IMG/VR virus record: IMGVR_UViG_3300042888_001661
Span: 1 to 61,362 of that record
Length of the DNA stretch: 61,362 nt
Strand: one strand, 5' to 3'
From: a virus
Within the stretch, counting starts at the first letter, position 1, and the number at the start of each line of letters is the position of its first letter. The notes under the pieces are model-generated. The model made no database searches, was not told where the DNA came from, and saw only the letters and a program-made list of their open reading frames with translations. Positions 19,133 through 58,617 of this stretch are shown here, piece after piece. Position numbers and translations under genes: made by a program.

Positions 19133-19140
19133 CATAAATA
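19133..19140 (+). promoter_or_regulatory. T4-type late promoter box for the sheath gene
   Basis: CATAAATA lies 26 bases before ATG 19167, with an AAAAAAGGA ribosome site between. It is one base off the T4 late consensus TATAAATA. Confidence 0.75.
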
Positions 19141-19166: not shown

Positions 19167-22100
19167 ATGGCCCTAACATCCCCCGGCGTAGAAGTAACCA
19201 TAATTGATCAGAGCAATTATGTTCCTGGCGCTACCAATTCGGTACCGTTTATTTTGTTGGCAACAGCACAGAACAAAATTTCTGGCGCTGGCGTTGGTGT
19301 AGCCTCAGGCACACTGGCTGTCAATGCAAACAAGACTTTCTTAATGACCAGTCAGCGCGACTTGTTGAGCACGTTTGGCGTGCCGTTCTTTTACAATACC
19401 ACAGCAGGTACTCCGATCAACGGATACGAGCTTAATGAATATGGCCTGTTAGCCGCTTACTCGGCATTGGGCATTACCAATCAATGCTATGTGCAACGAG
19501 TAGACGTGGACTTGGCTGCCTTAACTGCCAGTCTAACTAGACCGTTGGGTGCTCCTGACAACAATACCTACTGGCTGGATACTACCAACACTGCTTGGGG
19601 AATTTTTGAGTGGAATTTGACCACTGGTGCATTTACCAATAAGGTTCCGCTGGTGATCACAGACACAGCTGATCTAGAAACTGCCAGTGTGGTGCCACTA
19701 CAAAGTATTGGCAGCATAGGTGACTACGCAGTCACAACCGGTCAAACACAAACTGCCAACGTGGCTGGCGCCTTGCAAAATCCTGAATACTACAAGCGCG
19801 GTGGACCAACCAGCACACAAACAAGTTCAACCGCACTAAGTGATTTATACAACACCTGGGTTGATGTTGGTAGCGATGACTGGAAAACTGCCTGGCCCTC
19901 AATAAGCGGCACCTTGGCTCCTAGTACTCTTGTAGCAGCCAATTCAATCAGAATCAACAACACCAACACTGTAGCAGTACCAGCCTCAGCAAACAACACG
20001 CCTACCGGACTTTCTGCTGCTATCAACACTGCCAACATAGCTGGTGTTTACTCGGCTGTAATTGGCGGAGCCATGTTTGTGTATGCTGACAGCACTTCAA
20101 CCGGATTTAACGGCACTGTGTCAGCAGGTGTAGCCAATGTTACCACTGGCATAGCCACATTGACATTTACCAACACAGGTAATGCTGTACCAACACCGTA
20201 TGCTGTGGGCAGTACAATCACAGTAGCAGGCACAGACAGTAGTAACTATAACGGATCTTATGTGGTTACTGCATCTACAAATATTTCAGTGAGTTTTAGC
20301 TTTGATGGGGCCAACGTGGCCACAGGCAACGGCCTTATAACCAGTAGTGGCACTGTGTCCATAAACAATGTGACCGGCACACCATTAGCCTCACTGGGCA
20401 TCACAGCAGGAGCATATTCAACACCAACCTATTTGGCCAACCCCAGTTATCTAAACCCAAGATGGAACAGCAGCAACAGTTTTCCGCAACCAACTGGCTC
20501 AGTATGGCAAAAGACCAACAATGTAAATCTAGGTACCAATCTTGTTGTCAAGAGATACAATGGCACACTGGGATTGTTTGTACAGCAGGCCTGTCCGGTA
20601 TATGCTACCAACGAAGCAGCCTTGTATGCGCTGGATCCTGCAGGCGGTGGCTTGAATATTTCAGCCGGCAGTACCTATGCTCAAGTTGATCCATACGGCA
20701 ACACCACTGGTGGCTTTATGTTGTTCAGCAGATACGTGGCTGGACCAACCAATATTACTGGCTACACAGTACCAGGAACATTTACAAGCAGTGAGACATT
20801 CACTATCAGTGCCAGCGAAAGCGGCAGCAGTGTGTTGAACACTGCCACAGCAACCTTGACAGGAACTTCAGTAGAAGACTTTATTGCGGCAGTCAGTGCT
20901 GCAGCAGTCCCTTATGTGAGTGCTTCGATAGACAGTTCAGGATTTGTAGTGTTTACACACAGCCAAGGCGGTGATATACAACTATTAGATGTCACAGGTA
21001 CTCCGGTAGCAGATGCAGGCTTTGCAATTGGACAAAACATTGTGGGACTGACCTTGCTCAACGTTACTGGTCCAACACTGGTTCTCAGCAACTGGGTCAG
21101 CTATCCAACATTCAGTTATACCAGCAGTGACACAGCACCTGATCAAGATCCAGCAAATGGTACCTACTGGTACTATAGTGATCCTACACAAGTGGATATC
21201 ATGATCCAGGATGGCGGAAGATGGCAAGGTTATCAGAATGTGACCAGCGACATACGTGGTTATGACCTTAGCATAACCAACGCTACCGGTCCTATTATCA
21301 GTGCCACAGCACCAACCACACAGACCGACACAGCAGAAAGTCCACTAGAACTGGGCGATCTCTGGATTGACACCAGTAATCTTGAATTGTACCCAGTGAT
21401 TTATCGTTGGGAATCTGTGGACGGAGTTGAACAGTGGGTTGAAATTGACAACAGCAATCAGACCACACAGAATGGTGTGCTGTTTGCTGATGCCAGATGG
21501 GCACCAAATGGTACCACAGATCCTGTGGCCGATCCATTGCCTACCATAATCAGCTTGCTGACCAGCGATTATCTTGATCCTGATGCAGTCAGTCCAAGCC
21601 TGTATCCAGAAGGTATCCTGTTGTTTAACACTCGCAGAAGTGGGTTCAATGTGAAAACATTCCAGAGCAATTACTTCAATGCCACAGATTATCCAGCGTA
21701 TCCTTGGAGTAGCACTACCACTTACAGTATCGGTAATTTGGTCACAGTGGCCAGTATAACCTACATCAGTTTGGCCGACAACAACTTTAACAACGCTGTG
21801 GGTACCAATGCATTTTGGACTCCGATTACAGTGACCAACACCTGGTTGACTGCCAGTGGCAATCGAGCAGATGGCAGTCCATACATGGGTCGTCAGGCAC
21901 AACGTAGCATAATCAATCAGGCCTTGCGTGCTGGTATTGACAGCAACACCGTGATTAGAGAAGAACAAAACCAGTTTAACTTGATTGCATGCCCGGCATA
22001 TCCTGAGTTGGCCCCCAATTTGGCCTTGCTCAATGCCGACCGTGGAGAAACTGCATTTGTGGTAGTAGACACTCCGTTGAGATTGACACCGCAAGAAGTT

Positions 22101-22829
22101 GTAACTTGGGCAACCAACAACAACGGACTGGGTGTGATCACAGGTGACGGTAATCTAAACGCTGGTGATTCTTATGCGGCTGCTTTCTATCCAAGCTGTA
22201 CTACTAATGACCTTAGTGGTAACTTGGTAGTAACTGCACCAAGTCACATGATGTTGCGTACAATTATTCGCAGTGATGAAGTTAGTTTTCCATGGCTAGC
22301 ACCAGCTGGCACACGACGCGGTGTAGTAGACAATGCCACACAGATTGGTTATTTGAATGCACAAACTGGTGAATTTGAACCTCTGGGTGTGAGCCAAGGC
22401 TTGCGTGATGTGTTGTATCAAAACAATGTGAATCCAATCACGTTCATTCCGGGTGTGGGTATTACCAACTTTGGTAATCATACACTGCAAGGCACAACTA
22501 CAGCACTGGATCGTATCAATGTGGCCAGACTGGTAGCGTTCCTGCGTGCCAGACTAGCAGAAATTGGAAAAACATATCTGTTTGAACCAAATGACACAAT
22601 TACACGCCAGCAGATAACCAATGCAATTACCAACTTGATGATCGATCTTGTGGCCAAGCGAGGTATCTATGATTACTTGGTTGTGTGCGATCTTTCAAAC
22701 AACACACCAGCCAGAATTGATGCCAACGAACTGTATGTTGACATCGCAATTGAGCCAGTGAAAGCCGTGGAGTTTATCTACATACCAGTACGTATACAAA
22801 ACACAGGCACTATTGGTGCAACGGTATAA
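19167..22829 (+). CDS. 18: Tail sheath protein (gp18-like), greatly expanded
   Basis: 1220 residues, against 659 in T4. The N terminus MALTSPGVEVTIIDQSNYVP and the C-terminal 350 residues are typical sheath: RSGFNVKTFQSNYFN, SHMMLRTIIRSDEVSFPWLA, PAGTRRGVVDNATQIGYL, NPITFIPGVGITNFGNHTLQ and DRINVARLVAFLRARL. The middle (about 125-890) is an insertion rich in Thr/Ser/Asn. It has aromatic modules near residue 127 (NNTYWLDTTNTAWGIFEW), 654 (DQDPANGTYWYYSD), 726 (LGDLWIDTSNLELYPV) and 841 (YPWSSTTTYSIGNLV, like a CBM5/12 module). The insert probably decorates the outside of the sheath. Confidence 0.9.
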   Translation: MALTSPGVEVTIIDQSNYVPGATNSVPFILLATAQNKISGAGVGVASGTLAVNANKTFLMTSQRDLLSTFGVPFFYNTTAGTPINGYELNEYGLLAAYSALGITNQCYVQRVDVDLAALTASLTRPLGAPDNNTYWLDTTNTAWGIFEWNLTTGAFTNKVPLVITDTADLETASVVPLQSIGSIGDYAVTTGQTQTANVAGALQNPEYYKRGGPTSTQTSSTALSDLYNTWVDVGSDDWKTAWPSISGTLAPSTLVAANSIRINNTNTVAVPASANNTPTGLSAAINTANIAGVYSAVIGGAMFVYADSTSTGFNGTVSAGVANVTTGIATLTFTNTGNAVPTPYAVGSTITVAGTDSSNYNGSYVVTASTNISVSFSFDGANVATGNGLITSSGTVSINNVTGTPLASLGITAGAYSTPTYLANPSYLNPRWNSSNSFPQPTGSVWQKTNNVNLGTNLVVKRYNGTLGLFVQQACPVYATNEAALYALDPAGGGLNISAGSTYAQVDPYGNTTGGFMLFSRYVAGPTNITGYTVPGTFTSSETFTISASESGSSVLNTATATLTGTSVEDFIAAVSAAAVPYVSASIDSSGFVVFTHSQGGDIQLLDVTGTPVADAGFAIGQNIVGLTLLNVTGPTLVLSNWVSYPTFSYTSSDTAPDQDPANGTYWYYSDPTQVDIMIQDGGRWQGYQNVTSDIRGYDLSITNATGPIISATAPTTQTDTAESPLELGDLWIDTSNLELYPVIYRWESVDGVEQWVEIDNSNQTTQNGVLFADARWAPNGTTDPVADPLPTIISLLTSDYLDPDAVSPSLYPEGILLFNTRRSGFNVKTFQSNYFNATDYPAYPWSSTTTYSIGNLVTVASITYISLADNNFNNAVGTNAFWTPITVTNTWLTASGNRADGSPYMGRQAQRSIINQALRAGIDSNTVIREEQNQFNLIACPAYPELAPNLALLNADRGETAFVVVDTPLRLTPQEVVTWATNNNGLGVITGDGNLNAGDSYAAAFYPSCTTNDLSGNLVVTAPSHMMLRTIIRSDEVSFPWLAPAGTRRGVVDNATQIGYLNAQTGEFEPLGVSQGLRDVLYQNNVNPITFIPGVGITNFGNHTLQGTTTALDRINVARLVAFLRARLAEIGKTYLFEPNDTITRQQITNAITNLMIDLVAKRGIYDYLVVCDLSNNTPARIDANELYVDIAIEPVKAVEFIYIPVRIQNTGTIGATV

Positions 22830-26079: not shown

Positions 26080-26688
26080 ATGAAAAAATTTCAAGAATAC
26101 CTCGCTGAATCAGAAAGAACCTACAATTATCGTATCAAGATCGTGGGCGACACTCCTCCAAATTTCTTAAAAGATATGGAAGAGAAACTCAAACAGTTTG
26201 ATATCGTCAAGATCTCAGCACCCAAGACCACACCAGTGCAGGCCAAGCCTGCAGACTTTCCAGCTTTTGATAACGAGCGTGTGACACATGTGGATGTGGA
26301 GTTCCGTTATCCAGCTATTGAGCCACAGATCCAACAGATCGCACAGTTGTTGATGTTTGATCCTAACCGAATCAGAATGCTTACAACTCCATATGAAAAT
26401 AGCATGGATCAAGAGCGTGCAGAAGTAGAAGCTCAAAATAAAAATCTCTTGACTGATACAGATTTTCCTGCACCAAACCGAGAACAAAAAGCCTTGTACA
26501 AAGACTACAGTGCTGAATACAACAATCATGCTGTGCTTAAAAATGCTTACCGCAGTGACTTTACTGTGGCTGGTGGCAAGACACCACCTGCACAAACCAC
26601 AAACGATTTGCCAATGGGAAACAAAAGTCCAATGAGCAAGATCAAGTTACCACCTAGGCCAGCAACTGGCAACAAACCAAGAGGATAA
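26080..26688 (+). CDS. Virion-type protein with capsid-targeting-like N terminus
   Basis: 202 residues. The first ten residues, MKKFQEYLAE, closely match the T4 capsid-targeting sequence MKTYQEFIAE of internal proteins, and L-A-E fits the gp21 protease site (L/I-x-E). The next 90 residues form an alpha/beta domain (YNYRIKIVGDTPPNFLKDME, HVDVEFRYPAIEPQIQQIAQ). The C terminus is Pro/Lys-rich and disordered. Similar proteins occur in marine T4-like phages without known function. Packaging into the head is inferred from the N terminus. Confidence 0.75.
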   Translation: MKKFQEYLAESERTYNYRIKIVGDTPPNFLKDMEEKLKQFDIVKISAPKTTPVQAKPADFPAFDNERVTHVDVEFRYPAIEPQIQQIAQLLMFDPNRIRMLTTPYENSMDQERAEVEAQNKNLLTDTDFPAPNREQKALYKDYSAEYNNHAVLKNAYRSDFTVAGGKTPPAQTTNDLPMGNKSPMSKIKLPPRPATGNKPRG

Positions 26689-26691
26689 ACA

Positions 26692-28656
26692 ATGGATAAT
26701 TTTTTCTACAACCTAAACAAAAAGATGTCAGATTTGGCCAAACGCCAGGACCTGGCTGAAAGTGCTGTTACTGAACGTGACATGGGCAAACACAATAATG
26801 CCACAACTGGATTCAAGGCCTTGGCCAAGAAAGCTGGAGACAAATACGGAAGCAAAGCCGCAGGTGAACGTGTTGCTGGTGCTCAATTCCAGAAGATGAA
26901 AAAAGCTGGACAGTTGGAAGAAACCGACATGGACGAAAGTGCATTGCAAGCCTACATTGGCGATAAAAAGTATGGCCGTGATGGCATGGAAGCACTGCGT
27001 AAGGCCGGACGAGATGGTGCCAGCAAAGACAAAATGTCCAGCATCAGAAACAAATACAACAAGATGGACGAAGACGATGTAGAAGAAGGCAACCGGTTTG
27101 CTCATAATGTGCTCAAGGCCAAGGCTGCAGGAGTCAAGAAAGCCGATCTTGATGGTGACGGTGATATGGAAACAGTGCGCGAAGCTGACAAGCCAATGAG
27201 CCCTAAACAAAAATCATTTGCCAAACTGGCACCTCCCGCAGATAAAATCACTTTTGCTGACAAGATTGCTGGCGCTAAAAAAGAAGTTGATGAGATGTTG
27301 GGCGACGTAGCAGCCACAGCAATGAAAAATGCAGTTGCTCCAAGAAAGAATCAAGATGCCATGGCCGGCAAGCAAGATCTAAAAAGACCCAGCAAAGAAA
27401 CTCCATTGAAGAATGTTGGCAAAGGATTGAAAGCATTTGTGCAAGGCAAAGACGAACCCATGGATGAGGAAAAGACTCAGGAGCCACGGAGCAAAGGCAC
27501 AGCATTTGATCCTGATTATCAGGCTCAGGCAAAAAAAGAAAAAGAAGGAACCGGCAATTTTGACAAGAAAAAAATCAGCACTGGCACTGTTTACACTCGT
27601 CGACACAAGGATGACGAGGAAGAAGTCAAATCAGATGAACCAAAAGCCAAAGGTCGTCCAAAAGGTCCTGCCAAGGGTCCTGAGCGTGTGACAGCCAAGA
27701 GCTACAAGTACAAAGGTGGTCGTCCAGTAAAAGAAAATGACATCTCTATTGCTGACCGTGGCGAGTACGATCAAGAAGGCGACATGGCCAAGGAACAGTT
27801 ACACACTATTAAATTGGCTGCAAGAGAACTGGCCAGTATTCTCAGCGACAATGAAAATTTACCAGAATGGGTACAAAGCAAAATCACCAAGGCCATGGAC
27901 TATATTGACACAGCACGTGATTACATGATAGCAACCAAGGCTGATCGAGAAACAATGGCTGAACGATCGGCGCGGCCAGTGCAAAAATCTGCCAAAGGTC
28001 GCAAACCAGATTTCTTGGATATTGACGGCGACGGCGACAAAAAAGAGCCAATGAAAAAAGCAGTTGCCGACAAGAAAGAGAAAAAAGTCGCTGAAACAAC
28101 CACAAGTGGTAGTGTGGCAACAGCTCCAGAAACTAAAAAATCATCAGGCAGTATGCAGTTTGGCAAAGGTGTTTATGAAGGTGCCATTGCAGAAAGCTAT
28201 CAAAAGAAATTGAATACAGTGCTTGCTGAAGCCATGAATGTGACTGTGACCATGAACAATCAAGATGACGGCAATCCTACCAAGACCATAAATGTCAGTG
28301 CTGATGGAGAAGATGCTGAGAAATTGGCAGAGATTTTAAAGTTGGCTGGCCTAGGCGGCCAATCTGGTGGATGTAGCTCATGTGGTCAGGCACCATGCGG
28401 TTGCCAAACCATGGACGAAGCCTACGGTGATACAACTGCTACCATGAATAGTCCAGACTACCCAACTGATACTGAAACCATCGACGGTGACGATCCATAC
28501 CTACGCAGATTCAGCGGCGGTCTAAATGGTGCCAAGTCAACTGGTCAGACCACCATTCCGGTCATTGCCGGTCAAATGCGTAGAACAAGTACCATGGAAG
28601 AAAATGTGGAACTTGAGCGCAGTTTGTTTAACACTTGGAAAACGTACAAAGGCTAA
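26692..28656 (+). CDS. Large Lys/Ala/Asp-rich internal or scaffold-type virion protein
   Basis: 654 residues, mostly low-complexity and charged. Two EF-hand-like calcium loops are visible: DLDGDGDMETV (about residue 153) and DIDGDGDKKEPM (about 444). Near the C terminus is a Cys cluster, GGCSSCGQAPCGCQ (about 560-572), then ENVELERSLFNTWKTYKG. Several L/I-x-E sites (DLAE, QLEE) suggest processing by a prohead protease. Comparable proteins occur in marine T4-like phages, where they are uncharacterised. It starts 3 bp after the previous gene. Confidence 0.7.
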   Translation: MDNFFYNLNKKMSDLAKRQDLAESAVTERDMGKHNNATTGFKALAKKAGDKYGSKAAGERVAGAQFQKMKKAGQLEETDMDESALQAYIGDKKYGRDGMEALRKAGRDGASKDKMSSIRNKYNKMDEDDVEEGNRFAHNVLKAKAAGVKKADLDGDGDMETVREADKPMSPKQKSFAKLAPPADKITFADKIAGAKKEVDEMLGDVAATAMKNAVAPRKNQDAMAGKQDLKRPSKETPLKNVGKGLKAFVQGKDEPMDEEKTQEPRSKGTAFDPDYQAQAKKEKEGTGNFDKKKISTGTVYTRRHKDDEEEVKSDEPKAKGRPKGPAKGPERVTAKSYKYKGGRPVKENDISIADRGEYDQEGDMAKEQLHTIKLAARELASILSDNENLPEWVQSKITKAMDYIDTARDYMIATKADRETMAERSARPVQKSAKGRKPDFLDIDGDGDKKEPMKKAVADKKEKKVAETTTSGSVATAPETKKSSGSMQFGKGVYEGAIAESYQKKLNTVLAEAMNVTVTMNNQDDGNPTKTINVSADGEDAEKLAEILKLAGLGGQSGGCSSCGQAPCGCQTMDEAYGDTTATMNSPDYPTDTETIDGDDPYLRRFSGGLNGAKSTGQTTIPVIAGQMRRTSTMEENVELERSLFNTWKTYKG

Positions 28657-29147
28657 TGAAAACTCTTAAAGACTACATCACAGAAAGTGAAAACTGGATG
28701 CAGACTCCTGCCGAAGGTGATAACTTTGGCATTGAATTGTCTGATGGCACCTTGATTGAATCTTATATCCTTGAGCTGGCAGATGACAGTATCCTACTTG
28801 ATGCCACAGTAGATATAGTAAGTGTGTTAGAGTCCTGGAACTTGCTTAGTGAGCAGGAATCAGAAGACACAGTGATCCTGGAAACTCAGGATGACGACAT
28901 GGACGAAGCCAAATACCAAGGTCGCGAAGTTCCGTTAGGAAAACCCATGAAGGGAGATGTAAAAAAATCCAAGGTGTATGTGCGAGATCCGTCAACAGGC
29001 AACATCAAAAAAGTAAACTTTGGTGATCCCAACATGCGTATCAAGAAAACCAGTCCTGCACGTAGGAAAAGTTTCAGAGCCAGACACAACTGTGCAAACC
29101 CGGGCCCTAGAACAAAGGCTCGATATTGGTCGTGCCGAGCTTGGTAA
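28656..29147 (+). CDS. Conserved virion-type protein with capsid-targeting-like N terminus
   Basis: 163 residues from ATG 28656, which overlaps the previous stop by one base (TAATG). The N terminus MKTLKDYITES again mimics the T4 capsid-targeting sequence, with I-T-E as possible cleavage site. The C-terminal third is a strongly basic conserved block: VYVRDPSTGNIKKVNFGDPN, then RRKSFRARHNC and TKARYWSCRAW. This block is widespread in large T4-like phages, but I know of no assigned function. Basic, DNA-facing character fits a head-internal protein. Confidence 0.75.
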   Translation: MKTLKDYITESENWMQTPAEGDNFGIELSDGTLIESYILELADDSILLDATVDIVSVLESWNLLSEQESEDTVILETQDDDMDEAKYQGREVPLGKPMKGDVKKSKVYVRDPSTGNIKKVNFGDPNMRIKKTSPARRKSFRARHNCANPGPRTKARYWSCRAW

Positions 29148-30955: not shown

Positions 30956-31636
30956 GTGGATATTTACCACTACACTTATCAAATCACAAACAAGATCAAT
31001 GGCCATATCTATGTTGGCGTAAGGCAATCGAAAGTTATTCCAACCGACGATACCAGCTATATGGGATCAGGCAATGCTATTAAAGCTGCTATCTTAAAAT
31101 ATGGAATACAGAACTTTGAAAAAACTATCATTTCACTTTACGAGAGTAGAGAAGAAGCATTAGTTGCCGAAGCCGCAATAGTAATTTTAGAGTTCGTTCA
31201 AAGAAAAGACACATATAATCTAAAACTTGGAGGTAAAGGTGGTTCCTTGAAAGGAAGACCTGTTTCAGACAAAACTAGGCAAAAAATATCCAAAGCTAAT
31301 ACAGGAAAATATATGCCACCTTTTTCTGAAGAGCATAAACGAAAAATGTCTGAGTCTATGAAAGGAAGGTCCACTCATAACAAAGGAAAATCCCCATCTG
31401 AAGAAACTAAAAGAAAAATGTCAGAGTCTGGAAAAAGACGAAACCCTATGTCTGAGGAAACCCGACAAAAATTATCCAAGGTAGGAAAAGGAAGACCTCA
31501 TTCTGAAGAACATAAACGAAAAATATCTGAATCGAAACAAGGAAATCGCAGAAAGCCATTTTCAGAAGAGCATAAGAAAAAAATATCAGAAGCTCATAAG
31601 AAAAAATTATTATCCGCAGTAAGCACCGAGGCATAA
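30956..31636 (+). CDS. GIY-YIG homing endonuclease (Seg-like) with six NUMOD3 repeats
   Basis: 226 residues from GTG 30956, with AAGGAG 9 bases upstream. The N-terminal nuclease core is [36 protein letters not shown] and a Glu-rich helix ([11 protein letters not shown]). The rest is six tandem NUMOD3-like repeats of the type [16 protein letters not shown], which bind DNA. The gene is AT-rich and Lys-rich and interrupts the run between the thermonuclease and the radical SAM genes, as expected for a mobile free-standing endonuclease. Confidence 0.85.
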
Positions 31637-31643
31637 TTACAGT

Positions 31644-32780
31644 ATGACCAACTTCTATTGCGCAGCCCCCTGGCGGGGCTTGCATATCAACCCGCGCGGT
31701 GATGTAAAAACCTGCTGTGCTGGCAATCCCAACATGCTGGGCAATCTCAATACACAAACCATTGAACAGATACTTAATAGTTCGCTTATGGCCAAAATCC
31801 GCACCAGTCTGGCACAGGGCAAACCGCATGACTACTGTTCTAATTGTGTGAGAGCAGAAAGATTTGGTGCTGACAGCGAACGGCAATGGCACAACAATGT
31901 GAATCCTGGCTTTGACTATGCCACAGCCGGAGATCAATACCACTATCCTGTGATTGTAGATGTACGCTGGAACACCACTTGTAATCTGAGTTGTAACTAC
32001 TGTGGCGAAGCATGCAGTAGCAAATGGGCCGCAATCAAAGGTATTCCATTCAAGTCCGGAGCAAGACCTTATTACGATGCAGTATGTGATTTTATTGCTG
32101 AACATTACGAACACATACATGAAGTGGCCTTGGTTGGTGGCGAACCTTTGTTGTTGCCAGAAAACGAACGTCTGCTAGATGTCATACCCCAGGATGCCAT
32201 AGTTACACTGATTACTAATCTCAGTGTTGATTTAGAAAACAATAAAATTTTTAAAAAGCTATGCAATAGATCCCGGGTAGGCTGGAGTATGAGTTTTGAC
32301 AACACAGGTGATCGACTGGAATATGTCAGACACGGAGCCAAATGGGATCAAATACAGCAAAACTTGTCCACTATCAAAGGACTTATGAAGTCGCAAGGCC
32401 AATGGGGCGGCATACATGCAGTATACAATATTTACAATGCCACACGCATTTGTGAGTTGCGTGAGTTTGCTGAACAAACCGGAACCACTGTGCTATGGCA
32501 AAACTTGTTTCAACCCGAATATCTTGATCCGTTTTTGCATGGACCCAGAGTTGCGCTAGAGGCCATTGCCGAGATTGAACGTTTTTATGCCATGAACATT
32601 GCAACACCCGCAGAAAAATCATTCTTTGATCAGGCCTTGACCAATTATCATGCTGTGACCCAAGCCAGAAACGGCATTGAACACCAGTTTGCACAACATA
32701 TTCAACGGATTGAAACCCAATATCACCCTGCCACACAAGGACAGTTTGCCCGATTGTGGCCTGAACTGGCAACGCTATGA
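31644..32780 (+). CDS. Radical SAM protein with twitch/SPASM-like domain, copy 1
   Basis: 378 residues. The 4Fe-4S/SAM motif CNLSCNYC is near residues 114-121 (CxxxCxxC), followed by VALVGGEPLLL, the SAM-contacting GGE motif. Before the core lies a Cys-rich block, FYCAAPWRGLHINPRGDVKT CC, with GNPNMLGNL and DYCSNC, resembling the SPASM/twitch auxiliary cluster region but placed N-terminally. It ends FARLWPELATL. Such enzymes modify peptides, RNA or small molecules; no substrate is evident. It overlaps copy 2 by 4 bp (ATGA). Confidence 0.8.
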   Translation: MTNFYCAAPWRGLHINPRGDVKTCCAGNPNMLGNLNTQTIEQILNSSLMAKIRTSLAQGKPHDYCSNCVRAERFGADSERQWHNNVNPGFDYATAGDQYHYPVIVDVRWNTTCNLSCNYCGEACSSKWAAIKGIPFKSGARPYYDAVCDFIAEHYEHIHEVALVGGEPLLLPENERLLDVIPQDAIVTLITNLSVDLENNKIFKKLCNRSRVGWSMSFDNTGDRLEYVRHGAKWDQIQQNLSTIKGLMKSQGQWGGIHAVYNIYNATRICELREFAEQTGTTVLWQNLFQPEYLDPFLHGPRVALEAIAEIERFYAMNIATPAEKSFFDQALTNYHAVTQARNGIEHQFAQHIQRIETQYHPATQGQFARLWPELATL

Positions 32781-33916
32781 CAATCTTAAAGAGCCCTACA
32801 TTTTGTTCTGCACCCTGGACCAGTTTAAATATTGATCAAACTGGTCGAGTAAGTCCTTGCTTTCACTGCCGTAGTGTGGTAGGCAATATCAAAGAGACGT
32901 CTATTCAAGAAGTTATCCATGGACCTGCATTAACAAGCATGCGCGAACACATGGCTCGTGGAGAATGGTACCCAGGATGTAGCTGGTGCAAAGAACTTGA
33001 AGAAACCACAGGCGTCAGTGGGCGTACAGTTCGATCTGCAAGCGAGCAAACTTTGAAAGCTATCGAGCATGATCCAGTTGATTATTTTGAACTACAACAC
33101 ATTGTGGTCAACTGGAGCAATTTGTGCAATCTTGCCTGTACCTATTGCAATCCCGATACCAGTACAGCCTGGCAAAGCATCAAGGGTATTCCTATTAACC
33201 ATGTCAAAAACGAACATCCAGATTTAATTGAATTGATTCAAACACAAGGACACACTGTAAAAGGGCTGGCATTGGGTGGTGGTGAACCGCTTTTGCAAAA
33301 AGGTCTCGTGGATTTTTTGCAATATCTTGTGCCCGAGCAGGTGCAAGTGTTGGTTACGACTAATCTCAGCATTGACATTACCAACAACCCCATATACAAT
33401 GAACTACGCACCTGGCCAGGAGTACAGTGGCAAATCAGTTTTGACAATGTCAACAAAGATAAATTTGAATATGTCCGACATGGTGCCACGTGGGAAACTT
33501 TTGTTGACAATATTAAAATCATGAAACAGCATGGGCAACGTGTAGTGGCACATCCTGCATATAGCATATATTGTGCTATGGATTTGGTTGAGTATTATGA
33601 ATTTTGTATTGCGTACCAACTTGATTTATTCTGGTGCGAACTGATACATCCACAACATCTGGATGTAAGACGCTATTCAGAGTCAATACGACAACAAGCC
33701 ATTGCGGAAATTGATCGAGTGGTGGAAAAATACAGTGATCATAAGAATCTGGCCATAGACACCTTGAAACGTTACCGTATGACCCTGGTAGACAATAGTT
33801 ATCTTTATAAATTTCCAGAGTTTAACCCTCCACAGTTTCATGAAACAAAGGAACGAGAACTAAAAACAGCGCATACATTTGCACAACTATGGCCAGAACT
33901 GGAAAATCAAATATGA
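32777..33916 (+). CDS. Radical SAM protein with twitch/SPASM-like domain, copy 2
   Basis: 379 residues, a tandem paralogue of copy 1 with the same order: Cys block FCSAPWTSLNIDQTGRVSPC and GCSWCKELEE, then radical SAM motif CNLACTYC, GLALGGGEPLL, and QISFDNVNKDKFEYVRHGA (copy 1: MSFDNTGDRLEYVRHGA). It ends FAQLWPELENQI. The copies share perhaps a third of residues by eye, so they diverged long ago and probably act on different sites or as a pair. It is coupled by ATGA to both neighbours. Confidence 0.8.
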   Translation: MTILKSPTFCSAPWTSLNIDQTGRVSPCFHCRSVVGNIKETSIQEVIHGPALTSMREHMARGEWYPGCSWCKELEETTGVSGRTVRSASEQTLKAIEHDPVDYFELQHIVVNWSNLCNLACTYCNPDTSTAWQSIKGIPINHVKNEHPDLIELIQTQGHTVKGLALGGGEPLLQKGLVDFLQYLVPEQVQVLVTTNLSIDITNNPIYNELRTWPGVQWQISFDNVNKDKFEYVRHGATWETFVDNIKIMKQHGQRVVAHPAYSIYCAMDLVEYYEFCIAYQLDLFWCELIHPQHLDVRRYSESIRQQAIAEIDRVVEKYSDHKNLAIDTLKRYRMTLVDNSYLYKFPEFNPPQFHETKERELKTAHTFAQLWPELENQI

Positions 33917-55201: not shown

Positions 55202-55249
55202 TCAGGACCAATTAGTTTAAAAACCCACTAAATAATACAAAGGTCCTGA
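55202..55249 (+). other. Inverted repeat around the helicase stop region
   Basis: TCAGGACC (55202-55209) is the reverse complement of GGTCCTGA (55242-55249), with 32 bases between. No U-run follows. The right arm lies where the ribosome would bind for ATG 55255, and CTAAATA (55228-55234) sits in the loop. Confidence 0.5.
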
Positions 55250-55254
55250 CCCGT

Positions 55255-55503
55255 ATGCAAAAGAAAACCCGTAGTATTCTCGAAGAATTAGAAACCTTGT
55301 ACGCCGAGCGTGATCAGCGTCATGTGATCGAAAATCGTGCCGCAAACATCATTGCCAGTGCCATACGCCTGCTTGAGCAAATAGATAGTAGTTACACAGC
55401 TGAACAGGCTGAAAACCTACAGCGCAAGTTGATCAATGCTATCAAACTGAGAGATCCTGCTAAATTTACAAGAACAGTGAGACGTACTGATGCAAATACA
55501 TGA
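55255..55503 (+). CDS. Small conserved protein, unknown
   Basis: 82 residues, helical: TRSILEELETLYAERDQRHV, ENRAANIIASAIRLLEQIDS and KLINAIKLRDPAKFTRTVRR. The N-terminal 'EEL..LY.ERD' pattern is shared by small proteins beside gp41 in marine T4-like phages. It could bind nucleic acid or the helicase, but this is not shown. It overlaps the next gene by 14 bp. Confidence 0.7.
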   Translation: MQKKTRSILEELETLYAERDQRHVIENRAANIIASAIRLLEQIDSSYTAEQAENLQRKLINAIKLRDPAKFTRTVRRTDANT

Positions 55504-56692
55504 ACTAACACAGCCCAAAAAATCTAAATTGGATGAAGTTGATTTTGTTGGTCCTGACAGTGTGTTTGCACAGGCCAAATCTGCTATACAGACCCGCGGC
55601 CGATCACTAATCGATCCACAAGCAGCCAAGGATGCTCAACAAGCCAGATACCAGGCTGATATTGCAAACAGCCTGGCACAAGGTAAAGCAGCTGGACTTG
55701 ATAAAAAGCCCACTCTGAATTCAGCATTGATTAAATTAAAAGCAAATCCTGCAGCCACGCAGTATGTTGCTGGAATAGTGGCCAAGTGGCCCAGTGTAAG
55801 TAGCATGGGTGGCACGTTAACACAAACAACCACTGGTCAGATAAACAAAGCCAATCCAAATAATCCCAATGTTGAGTTGGATTATTATAAGCGCAATCCA
55901 CCAAAGACTCAACCGGCTCAGCCTGCTCCAACTACTCCTGTTGCAGGCACACCAGCAACAGCACCCGTCGCTGATAAAGCAGCAAAGAATAAAGCAGATG
56001 CTGCTCAACGCAATGCTGACATAGAAAAAACAAAACAAGCAAATGCCGTAAAAAATCAACAAGATGCTGCTATCAAAGCAGCCGCTGACGCAGCCAAGGC
56101 CAAACCTGGATTTCAACAAACAGCCGCTGACAAACTAGCTATCAAATCCGCTAACACTAGAGGTATACGTGAAGATAACGCACAGGCATTTCAAGACACG
56201 ACACAGAAACTTGGTCAAACATTCAAAGATGGAGAACGTGTATTGAATCCAAACGATGAACAGGTCAAGGCAAAAATTAAAGCCTGGATCGATAGCCAAC
56301 TAAAAACAACCAGTCTAGAGACCCTCTATAAGGCTGAACAGGATGGGCTTGAAGGACTAAAAGGATTTGGCGAACAAATAGGAATCTATCTAGATAGCAT
56401 GGTCCAAGATCACAACAACATACCTGCACAACAAAAAACTCTAGAAAGTCTTGTGTCCTTGGTTGTGGCTGCCAACCACTTGGTTGATTTTGAACGGCGT
56501 ATAGGAGCCGGAAACAATTTACGCTATCAGGCTCGGCAAGGTACACAGGCTCAACCGGTCCAGACTGGATTGACCCCTGCTCAATTACAGAAGCTAAATG
56601 CTCAGGCTGCACAAGCTGGTGGGCCCGATCCCCAAAAAACTGGAAACGACTTCTGGGACAATCTAATAATACAAGCACTAGGATCAAGATAA
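55490..56692 (+). CDS. Ala/Gln/Lys-rich virion-type protein, unknown
   Basis: 400 residues. The N terminus MQIHELTQPKKSKLDEV is short and processing-like. The middle (about 150-230) is an Ala/Lys/Gln-rich coiled coil (NKADAAQRNADIEKTKQANA). The C-terminal part is helical: DEQVKAKIKAWIDSQLKTTS, GFGEQIGIYLDSMVQDH. No catalytic motif. It overlaps the next gene by one base. A head-internal or core role is inferred from composition. Confidence 0.65.
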   Translation: MQIHELTQPKKSKLDEVDFVGPDSVFAQAKSAIQTRGRSLIDPQAAKDAQQARYQADIANSLAQGKAAGLDKKPTLNSALIKLKANPAATQYVAGIVAKWPSVSSMGGTLTQTTTGQINKANPNNPNVELDYYKRNPPKTQPAQPAPTTPVAGTPATAPVADKAAKNKADAAQRNADIEKTKQANAVKNQQDAAIKAAADAAKAKPGFQQTAADKLAIKSANTRGIREDNAQAFQDTTQKLGQTFKDGERVLNPNDEQVKAKIKAWIDSQLKTTSLETLYKAEQDGLEGLKGFGEQIGIYLDSMVQDHNNIPAQQKTLESLVSLVVAANHLVDFERRIGAGNNLRYQARQGTQAQPVQTGLTPAQLQKLNAQAAQAGGPDPQKTGNDFWDNLIIQALGSR

Positions 56693-58617
56693 TGAAGATT
56701 TTTGAAGGTGGCAACGTATTCAAAGATGCCGACGGTCGTGCGCTCACACAACGCATCAATCAGGCCGATGTCAAACCTACTCTGGCCTGGCTAGAACAAC
56801 TGGTTCCTGGCCTGGATCTACTGAACAACACACTGGGCAGTACTGGTATCAAGGACACATCGGGTGATCTAGATATCGCCGTGGATGCCAATAAAGTTAC
56901 CAAAGAACAACTGCAACAAAGACTGGAGCAATGGGCTATCAGCCACGGCTTCAAACCACAAGAATGGGTCAGGAAGTCGGGCACAGCGGTGCATTTCAAA
57001 ACACCCATCACAGGCAGACCCGACCGCGGCTATGTGCAAACTGATTTTATGTTGATGAACAATGTGCCATGGTCCAAGTTTGTGCTAGGTGCCATGCCAG
57101 TAGACAGCCAGTTCAAAGGCCGTGAGCGTAATGTGTTAATGAACAGTCTGGCCAAAAGTATGGGTTACAAACTGAATCAAATAGCTGGTATAGCCGATCG
57201 TGACACAAACAAAATAATCACTGACGATCCTGATCGAGTGGCCAAATTGCTCCTGAACAAAACTGCCACACGCCAAGACTTGGCCAGTGTAGAAAGCATA
57301 GTACAGGCATTGAGCCGAGACCCCCAACGTGATGCCAAGTTGGCTGACTTTCGGGCACACCTGGAACGTGAAGGCATTCCATTCATGGAAAGTGCCGTGG
57401 TCAATCCTTATCAAGCGTACGACGAAGTAAACTTCCTGGCTAGACTACGAGATCGTATAGTCAATCAAGGCATGCAGATCATTGTAGAAGCCGAAGTACA
57501 AGGAGGACGTGCCAAGGGCATTGAACATCTAGAAGACTATGTGTTCCGTAACGGTAGTGCAGGTATTAAAAAAGCCATGGACATAGTAAAGAACACGGCA
57601 GAGAACACTGGTGCCACTACCACAGTCAAGTGGGATGGCAAACCAGCATTAGTATTTGGTCGTGATCCAGCAGGAACTTTTGTCTTGACTGATGTGTCTG
57701 GGTTTACAGCCAAAGGCTACAATGGCCTGTTTACCAGTCCACGTCAAGCAATTGGATTGTTAGCACAGCGCGATCAAGATGCAGCCGCCAAAGGCAAGCC
57801 AGCTGGGCGTGTGGAATATCTTGGTCCCATATATGAAAAATTATGGCCTTTATTAAGTGCCGCATTACCCAAAACATTCCGTGGCTATGTACAAGGTGAT
57901 TTGTTATACACCGACCGGCCCCCTGAGGATGCTGGCAATTTTGTGTTTACTCCTAATGCTATTACCTATAGGATCCCTATTGCCAGCGACGTAGGACAAC
58001 GTATAGGCAATAGTGAAGTTGGCATCGCCATGCATACCCGGTACGATGAACCTGGTTCGCCAAAAGAACCAATCGGTAATGTTGATTTCAAACGTGTTCC
58101 AGGACTGTTGTTACTAGAACCTGTGTATGCCAAAGAAAATGTACGACCAAATAGAAACTTGGTACAAGCTCTTAGAGACGTATACAAAACATCAGGATCG
58201 GCCATAGATGGCCTATTCAATCCAACAGAACTACGAGCCTTGCAAATCACTGACTTGCCTAAACTGTGCATTGATTATATCAACAGTAGGGTTGGTGCTG
58301 ACTTTGATAACTTGATCGCCGGCTTTGGACCTTGGCTACAAAGCACACAAAGTCCAAGAAAGTTTGCCAACATTGTAGAATATCTACAAAGTCCACGTAG
58401 CAATCTAGAAGGCATGGCCGCGGCATTTGAAGCCTGGGCCTTGCTACACGACATCAAGATGGACATATTACGCCAGCTGGATCTACAACATCCAGGACAA
58501 GAAGGCTGGGTAATGGCCACAGCAGGTGGCATGGCCAAGGCTGTGAACCGACTGGCAGGTGGATTCACCAGCGCCAACCGTGCCATAAACAATCCAGATC
58601 AACTGCCTACACCGTGA
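56692..58617 (+). CDS. Nucleotidyltransferase + RNA-ligase-like fusion protein
   Basis: 641 residues. The N-terminal domain has a DNA-polymerase-beta-type nucleotidyltransferase core: LGSTGIKDTSGDLDIAVD (G49-S50, D59, D61), then YVQTDFMLMN with the third Asp (D118). From about residue 290 there is a ligase/capping-type adenylyltransferase motif I, VKWDGKPALVFGRD, with K313 as the likely AMP-linked Lys (K-x-D-G), then LTDVSGFTAKGYN, GYVQGDLLYTD and VGIAMHTRYD. Similar fusions occur in large T4-like phages (DUF6267-type) without proven function. RNA end repair or nucleotide attachment is inferred. Confidence 0.7.
   Translation: MKIFEGGNVFKDADGRALTQRINQADVKPTLAWLEQLVPGLDLLNNTLGSTGIKDTSGDLDIAVDANKVTKEQLQQRLEQWAISHGFKPQEWVRKSGTAVHFKTPITGRPDRGYVQTDFMLMNNVPWSKFVLGAMPVDSQFKGRERNVLMNSLAKSMGYKLNQIAGIADRDTNKIITDDPDRVAKLLLNKTATRQDLASVESIVQALSRDPQRDAKLADFRAHLEREGIPFMESAVVNPYQAYDEVNFLARLRDRIVNQGMQIIVEAEVQGGRAKGIEHLEDYVFRNGSAGIKKAMDIVKNTAENTGATTTVKWDGKPALVFGRDPAGTFVLTDVSGFTAKGYNGLFTSPRQAIGLLAQRDQDAAAKGKPAGRVEYLGPIYEKLWPLLSAALPKTFRGYVQGDLLYTDRPPEDAGNFVFTPNAITYRIPIASDVGQRIGNSEVGIAMHTRYDEPGSPKEPIGNVDFKRVPGLLLLEPVYAKENVRPNRNLVQALRDVYKTSGSAIDGLFNPTELRALQITDLPKLCIDYINSRVGADFDNLIAGFGPWLQSTQSPRKFANIVEYLQSPRSNLEGMAAAFEAWALLHDIKMDILRQLDLQHPGQEGWVMATAGGMAKAVNRLAGGFTSANRAINNPDQLPTP

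Follow-up and report, generated by a model that had tools for sequence, protein, structure and literature searches.

The window analysed here, i.e., the whole stretch of 61,362 nucleotides of the virus record IMGVR_UViG_3300042888_001661, carries a three-gene operon whose last gene encodes a 641-aa protein with a nucleotidyltransferase-like N-terminal part and a ligase-like C-terminal part. The features of this locus are as follows (window positions; a slash marks a candidate cut):

55228–55234, plus strand: CTAAATA, preceding the operon and resembling a T4 late promoter motif; its position is kept in 11 of 12 relatives
55255–55503, plus strand: 82-aa operon gene (MQKKTRS[IL]LEEL...), which precedes the fusion in 11 of the 12 relatives examined
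55490–56692, plus strand: 400-aa low-complexity operon gene starting MQIHE[LI]T, whose stop overlaps the ATG of the fusion
56692–58617, plus strand: fusion gene, 641 aa, ATG start; C-terminal part is DUF6267 / phrog_455
56698–56709, plus strand: candidate prohead-protease site 1, I3-F4-E5/G6 (IFE/GG), in 102 of 102 fusions
56707–57396, plus strand: N-domain, palm and thumb, family-X-polymerase-like, residues about 6–235 (AlphaFold2, Foldseek, hhalign)
56836–56874, plus strand: metal-binding motif G49-S50 ... S57-G58-D59-L-D61, invariant apart from S50T in 5 of 102
57043–57045, plus strand: D118, third catalytic Asp (VQTDF), in 102 of 102 fusions and also in Phosso 447 and Atu_ph07 gp065
57481–57492, plus strand: candidate prohead-protease site 2, in the linker, I264-V265-E266/A267, in 101 of 101 fusions
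57490–58614, plus strand: C-domain DUF6267, residues 267–641, ligase-like covalent nucleotidyltransferase containing a helical insertion, about 130 aa long (AlphaFold2, Foldseek, BFVD)
57628–57639, plus strand: motif I, K313-W-D-G316, predicted lysyl-nucleotide site, in 141 of 141 sequences
57895–57903, plus strand: motif III candidate G402-D403-L404, G and D 100% conserved (n = 141)
58501–58539, plus strand: motif IV and V candidates E604-G605 ... K616, 100% conserved (n = 141)

Elsewhere in the window, two radical-SAM-like genes lie in tandem (31644–33916, plus strand) and adjoin a homing endonuclease-like gene (30956–31636).

The open reading frame at 56692–58617 is not a chance one because residues 379–629 of its 641-aa product match the Pfam family DUF6267 with an E-value of 1e-28; in addition, 101 GenBank phages match the protein (tblastn), and the frame was judged to result neither from chance nor from a chimeric contig. 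Among the GenBank matches listed, the matched region is the C-terminal part (about 256–633), mostly in cyanophages, and the N-terminal part alone (6–154) is matched by the Sinorhizobium phage Phosso and the Agrobacterium phage Atu_ph07. At least 585 IMG/VR stretches encode relatives of the full-length query, most of the 80 loci kept from the IMG/VR scan cover residues 1 to about 636 with 52–100% identity, and the fusion protein is carried by a large and widespread family of freshwater phages; no relative of the fusion was found in the bacterial and archaeal genomes searched. DUF6267 itself occurs in many cultured cyanophages and in at least 585–594 IMG/VR stretches in each of two scans, and without a fusion partner in 25 binned contigs, which are probably phage; no paper found by our literature search names this family.

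Within the 102 unique fusions, residues G49, D59, D61, D118, K313, D315, G316, D403, H448, E604, G605 and K616 are 100% conserved, and position 50 is Ser or Thr (Thr in 5 of 102). Those located in the C-domain show the same full conservation among 39 standalone DUF6267 proteins that are only 20–25% identical to the window protein, leading to a conservation set of 141 sequences for this domain. The initial annotation had read G49-S50, D59, D61, D118 and K313-W-D-G in this 641-aa protein, all of which indeed lie at these residues, and its impression that both active sites look intact agrees with their invariance among the fusions (S50T in five).

The AlphaFold2 model of the N-domain (48 homologues) reached a pLDDT of 88, and all 50 PDB matches listed by Foldseek were Pol lambda, Pol beta or bacterial PolX, with E-values of 2e-5 to 3e-4, a probability of 1.0 and a TM-score of about 0.45. 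Among the families compared with hhalign, PolX also gave the best sequence-profile match (E-values of 0.0016 for bacterial PolX, 0.22 for RlaP and 0.26 for CCA), with the catalytic residues in register: SGDLDI pairs with IGDIDI, QTDFM with QVDLR, and RNVLMNSLAKSMGYKLN with HNVVMRQRARDKKLTLN. The kinship proposed earlier, with the tRNA-nucleotidyltransferase, poly(A) and antitoxin families, is therefore not supported, since by both comparisons the nearest relatives are family X DNA polymerases. Membership in RlaP was rejected (no PF10127 match in the Pfam scan and an hhalign E-value of only 0.22), and so was membership in the CCA/poly(A) polymerases (no Pfam PolyA_pol match, an hhalign E-value of 0.26, and none among the 50 fold matches listed). 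Note that the Pfam scan gave no match to PF14792 (PolX palm) in the window protein or in six relatives, that PDB sequence searches with each of the two domains returned chance matches only, and that the lyase (8-kDa) and fingers (HhH) domains are not present, only about 45 aa lying ahead of the palm. Standalone relatives of the domain are Phosso 447, Atu_ph07 gp065 and Lak megaphage proteins. As shown by computation, residues about 6–235 are modelled as a family-X-polymerase-like nucleotidyltransferase with all catalytic residues conserved, for which the corresponding activity is predicted.

The model of the C-domain (82 homologues) displayed a pLDDT of 90.9, and the PDB matches listed by Foldseek were polynucleotide ligases only (DNA ligase IV, archaeal DNA ligases, Lig1/3, Trl1, REL1 and Rnl1), although low-scoring (best E-value 5e-3, TM-score about 0.2), as expected because about 130 aa of inserted helices separate the H448 region from E604. 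Against BFVD, DUF6267-type proteins came first, followed by DNA and RNA ligases, including a 324-aa ‘RNA ligase’ of Atu_ph07. Beyond motif I, ligase motifs III, IV and V are fitted by GD (402–403), EG (604–605) and K616-V-x-R, which the initial annotation had not listed, and the conserved KxDG, EG and basic motif V thus occur together with the nucleotidyltransferase-domain fold, as required for the ligase/capping superfamily of covalent nucleotidyltransferases. A C-terminal OB domain with motif VI was not found, as only 25 residues follow K616 and the secondary structure of the model contains no OB barrel; T4 Rnl1 and Rnl2 likewise have no OB domain. By computation, residues 267–641 are shown as a ligase-superfamily nucleotidyltransferase, with all catalytic residues conserved and a predicted activity. 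The ‘RNA-ligase-like’ identity given to this part is not separable from a DNA-ligase-like one, the top PDB matches being DNA ligases. Both folds announced by the initial annotation were recovered for each domain separately (pLDDT of 88 and 91), and neither the absence of a fold nor a loss of D59/D61 or K313 was observed across the homologues.

The same two parts were encountered as neighbours in the rhizobial phages. Phosso carries adjacent, overlapping genes 446 (KLDG, ligase-like) and 447 (nucleotidyltransferase), and in Atu_ph07 gp066 (KLDG) overlaps and lies just upstream of gp065, the homologue of the N-domain. DUF6267 aligns with Phosso 446 and Atu_ph07 gp066 with an hhalign E-value of 0.0017; gp066 shows a weak RNA_ligase similarity (E-value 0.002), and we infer that it is the Atu_ph07 ‘RNA ligase’ of BFVD because both are 324 aa long. 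The association of the two enzymes thus spans three lineages, as neighbouring genes in Phosso and Atu_ph07 and within one protein in the fusion. A separate RlaP gene is found elsewhere in Atu_ph07 and in a Lak phage. Among the GenBank matches listed, no DUF6267 protein bears the PolX-like N-domain, the members being either standalone or fused to a HIGH-superfamily domain. In S-PM2, the fusion partner of DUF6267 is a HIGH-superfamily cytidylyltransferase (T4-GC 71, 591 aa in total; loci L087, 6019–7798, and L349, 3486–5261), the older S-PM2 record having the two parts annotated as separate genes, and a HIGH gene adjoins DUF6267 in S-CAM4, Melnitz and DLP6; a search of the window and of most of the 344-kb relative revealed no HIGH-motif gene. 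A second type of DUF6267 fusion (L165, 1138–2779; L232 is similar) has another upstream domain and an internal leader-like site, LSFESFLAE/D. In Atu_ph07, the neighbouring gp061–063 (L085, 7576–10192) share a PLYRG stretch and have an L-x-E leader at the start; they are possibly Alt-like ADP-ribosyltransferases, with no Pfam support.

Regarding expression, [CA]TAAATA occurs 17 times on the plus strand of the window versus once on the minus strand, and 9 times in gene-upstream zones versus 0.8 expected (e.g., at 19134, 22863, 26055, 36301, 43936, 51674, 55228, 58633 and 60321), the tail sheath and tube genes being among those it precedes. This sequence pattern is a probable late promoter of this phage group; the exact T4 late promoter, TATAAATA, was searched for and is absent. 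The tail sheath protein (19167–22829, plus strand; phrog_10581) is, with 1220 aa, far above the usual length. The neighbours of the fusion, described as virion-type by the initial annotation, are so only by half, since primase (52863) and helicase (53797) genes lie directly upstream of the operon and the operon starts at its own late-type promoter motif; given this motif at 55228, the primase and helicase probably belong to another transcription unit. The 400-aa operon gene, whose N-terminus MQI[HY]E is common to the relatives retaining it, matches neither a Pfam family above the cut-off nor a PHROG, and no kinase or phosphatase domain for RNA-end healing was identified in the operon.

In T4, gp21 cleaves after L/I-x-E, and residues 1–10 of IPIII are enough for targeting (PMC9026906). 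A leader resembling those of the T4 internal proteins was identified in 62 of 71 standalone DUF6267 proteins (e.g., MINFNSFITE/D, MKFTEYLTE/S and MLNFRDYLTE/A), the cyanophage versions having none. In the fusions, candidate site 1 follows the pattern M-x(0-5)-[LIV]-x-E/GGN (P3 L, I or V, variable P2, P1 E, P1′ G; propeptide of 4–9 aa; 102 of 102), and candidate site 2 the pattern G-M-x-x-[LI]-x-E/[ASGT..] (P3 L or I, P1 E, P1′ mostly A, S, G or T, Met in 99; 101 of 101), in which P2, P1′ and the next spacer vary and P3 and P1 remain constant. Both lie in regions predicted to be disordered (pLDDT<50), i.e., residues 1–5 and the linker residues 263–268. Candidate site 2 is in register with the N-terminal LAE/S of the standalone DUF6267 protein of phage DLP6, and the nearly invariant Met261 may be a former start codon. 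However, [LI]xE is a short motif, which calls for caution in reading these sites: the fusion leader, with 5 aa, is shorter than T4 leaders and has no usual aromatic core, and genome-wide the N-terminal [LI]xE displays a modest excess in the 344-kb relative (13 versus 6.5 expected), a laxer pattern displaying none. This relative encodes a gp21-type protease (Peptidase_S77, E-value 4e-23) and a gp23 with an [LI]xE-rich N-terminus; the 61-kb window, being only part of a genome, yielded no such protease. Classic leaders of the T4 internal-protein type also begin two further window proteins, MKKFQEYLAE/S (26080–26688, plus strand) and MKTLKDYITE/S (28656–29147, plus strand), which are candidate injected head proteins. 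In Atu_ph07, 29 proteins of CDS 31–76 were detected in virions by mass spectrometry (PMC6102473), and gp065 and gp066 fall within this range. Head targeting, predicted from the leaders and the [LI]xE sites, is well supported at the level of sequence, and the earlier suggestion that the protein might even be packaged gains support from the capsid-targeting-like N-termini, the conserved [LI]xE and the late promoter motif.

Altogether, the gene product would be a late, head-targeted precursor of two enzymes. A gp21-type prohead protease would cut behind E5 and E266, the last residues of the two [L/I]-x-E motifs, as the sequence conservation of both sites suggests, removing the leader and freeing both enzymes within the head; more tentatively, these may be injected with the genome and act jointly at entry, the polymerase-like part replacing missing nucleotides and the ligase-like part sealing the strand. 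The targets would more likely be nicks, gaps and ends in the incoming DNA and less likely host or phage RNA. We give an even chance to this reading, in which a polymerase-like and ligase-like enzyme is packaged in the head, split there into its two parts and delivered with the DNA to repair ends or gaps of nucleic acids. As substrate, DNA is slightly favoured over RNA: DNA polymerases and DNA ligases have the most similar folds, a packaged protein would lie next to the genome, and Phaeocystis globosa virus provides an example of a PolX-ligase fusion with such an activity; RNA is still a candidate because the pairing of RlaP with RNA ligase is an established phage precedent and the ligase part has no OB domain. 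A canonical DNA ligase is encoded by all six longer relatives, and the idea that the fusion is the only DNA ligase of the phage was rejected on this ground. The stronger proposal remains tentative, with somewhat less than even confidence: a pre-made repair kit packed in the head as a polyprotein, split by the prohead protease and injected, would mend the phage's own DNA at entry, before any phage gene expression, and DUF6267 would generally be a head-delivered ligase of marine and freshwater phages of the T4 superfamily.

Repair of RNA, in which the pair would restore and rejoin tRNAs and other RNAs cleaved by host defence RNases and packaging would supply it at entry, is the less likely reading; the tRNA repair after anticodon-nuclease attack suggested by the initial annotation would be one such case. 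The ligase part has no OB domain, as in T4 Rnl1/Rnl2, Trl1, REL1 and Rnl1 are among its PDB matches, and gp066, the partner of the N-domain homologue in Atu_ph07, is weakly RNA_ligase-like. The pairing of a nucleotidyltransferase with an RNA ligase is moreover an established prediction for RlaP in jumbo phages (PMC7824862), but the N-domain does not match RlaP (Pfam; hhalign 0.22), Atu_ph07 and a Lak phage have RlaP as a separate gene, DNA polymerases and DNA ligases rank first by fold, and the operon revealed no kinase or phosphatase domain that could heal RNA ends.

The position of the gene directly behind the primase and helicase genes could instead mark an unpackaged, intracellular replication and repair enzyme (pol X and ligase) with coincidental [LI]xE motifs, the cyanophage DUF6267 being perhaps a missing ligase: cyanomyoviruses have no g30 (PMC2984593), a known ligase is missing from most subgroup 2.1 jumbo phages (PMC7824862), and the cyanophage versions carry no leader. 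We consider this improbable, since the operon has its own late promoter motif, leaders like those of T4 internal proteins occur in most standalone homologues (62 of 71), the invariant [LI]xE lie in disordered linkers, and the fusion phages have another DNA ligase. Still less probable is a non-joining role of the ligase fold, such as AMP transfer to nucleotide ends, cofactors or proteins, as the fusion or adjacency of DUF6267 with the HIGH superfamily (NadM/cytidylyltransferase-like; S-PM2, S-CAM4, Melnitz and DLP6), the missing OB domain and a motif III of GD instead of the usual acidic-Glu may suggest; the PolX-like or KLDG partner in the fusion and the rhizobial phages fits polynucleotide repair better, and the window and most of the 344-kb relative have no HIGH-motif gene.

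What is new here is the presence of capsid-targeting-type leaders on standalone DUF6267 proteins and of [L/I]-x-E twice in the fusion. Considering DUF6267 as a conserved, usually head-targeted enzyme of the ligase superfamily would give an unassigned family a testable role, and makes it a candidate for the ligase seemingly missing from cyanomyoviruses, whose versions have no leader. It also suggests that the genome of a phage can be accompanied into the cell by ready-made proteins for nucleic-acid repair and, if true, the two-site fusion would be a natural phage polyprotein matured within the head.

Several known systems resemble parts of this arrangement. PgVPolX of Phaeocystis globosa virus (gene 401) joins an N-terminal family X polymerase to a C-terminal DNA ligase, for which gap filling and sealing were shown (PMC5537341), and thus likewise has both parts in one viral protein and in the same order. 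However, it has a full Pol-beta core with lyase and fingers domains and a complete NAD+-dependent ligase within 1093 aa (PMC5537341), whereas the phage fusion consists of a palm and thumb without these two domains, followed by an atypical ligase part devoid of an OB domain, and carries candidate protease and capsid signals; we infer that the likeness is probably convergent. ASFV PolX is likewise a minimal family X polymerase without 8-kDa and fingers domains (PMC5537341), but it is separate from its own ligase and recognisable as PolX by sequence. The RlaP and RNA ligase systems of jumbo phages also tie a Pol-beta-superfamily nucleotidyltransferase to a KxDG-type ligase, but their predicted substrate is RNA and the part of PMC7824862 available to us describes no packaging signal; the phage fusion differs by having no Pfam RlaP match, and in Atu_ph07 and Lak RlaP is encoded by a gene of its own. 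T4 IPI-III and Alt have an N-terminal leader ending in [LI]xE, are cut by gp21, packaged and injected (PMC9026906), and the fusion has candidate [LI]xE sites; in contrast, the T4 proteins are small and basic or an ADP-ribosyltransferase, with no polymerase-ligase among them. The C-domain of the fusion is a member of DUF6267 / T4-GC 71 / phrog_455 (Pfam E-value 1e-28). Both kinds, PolX-ligase repair enzymes and head-delivered proteins of the T4 type, are thus already known, and it is their combination that is unusual.
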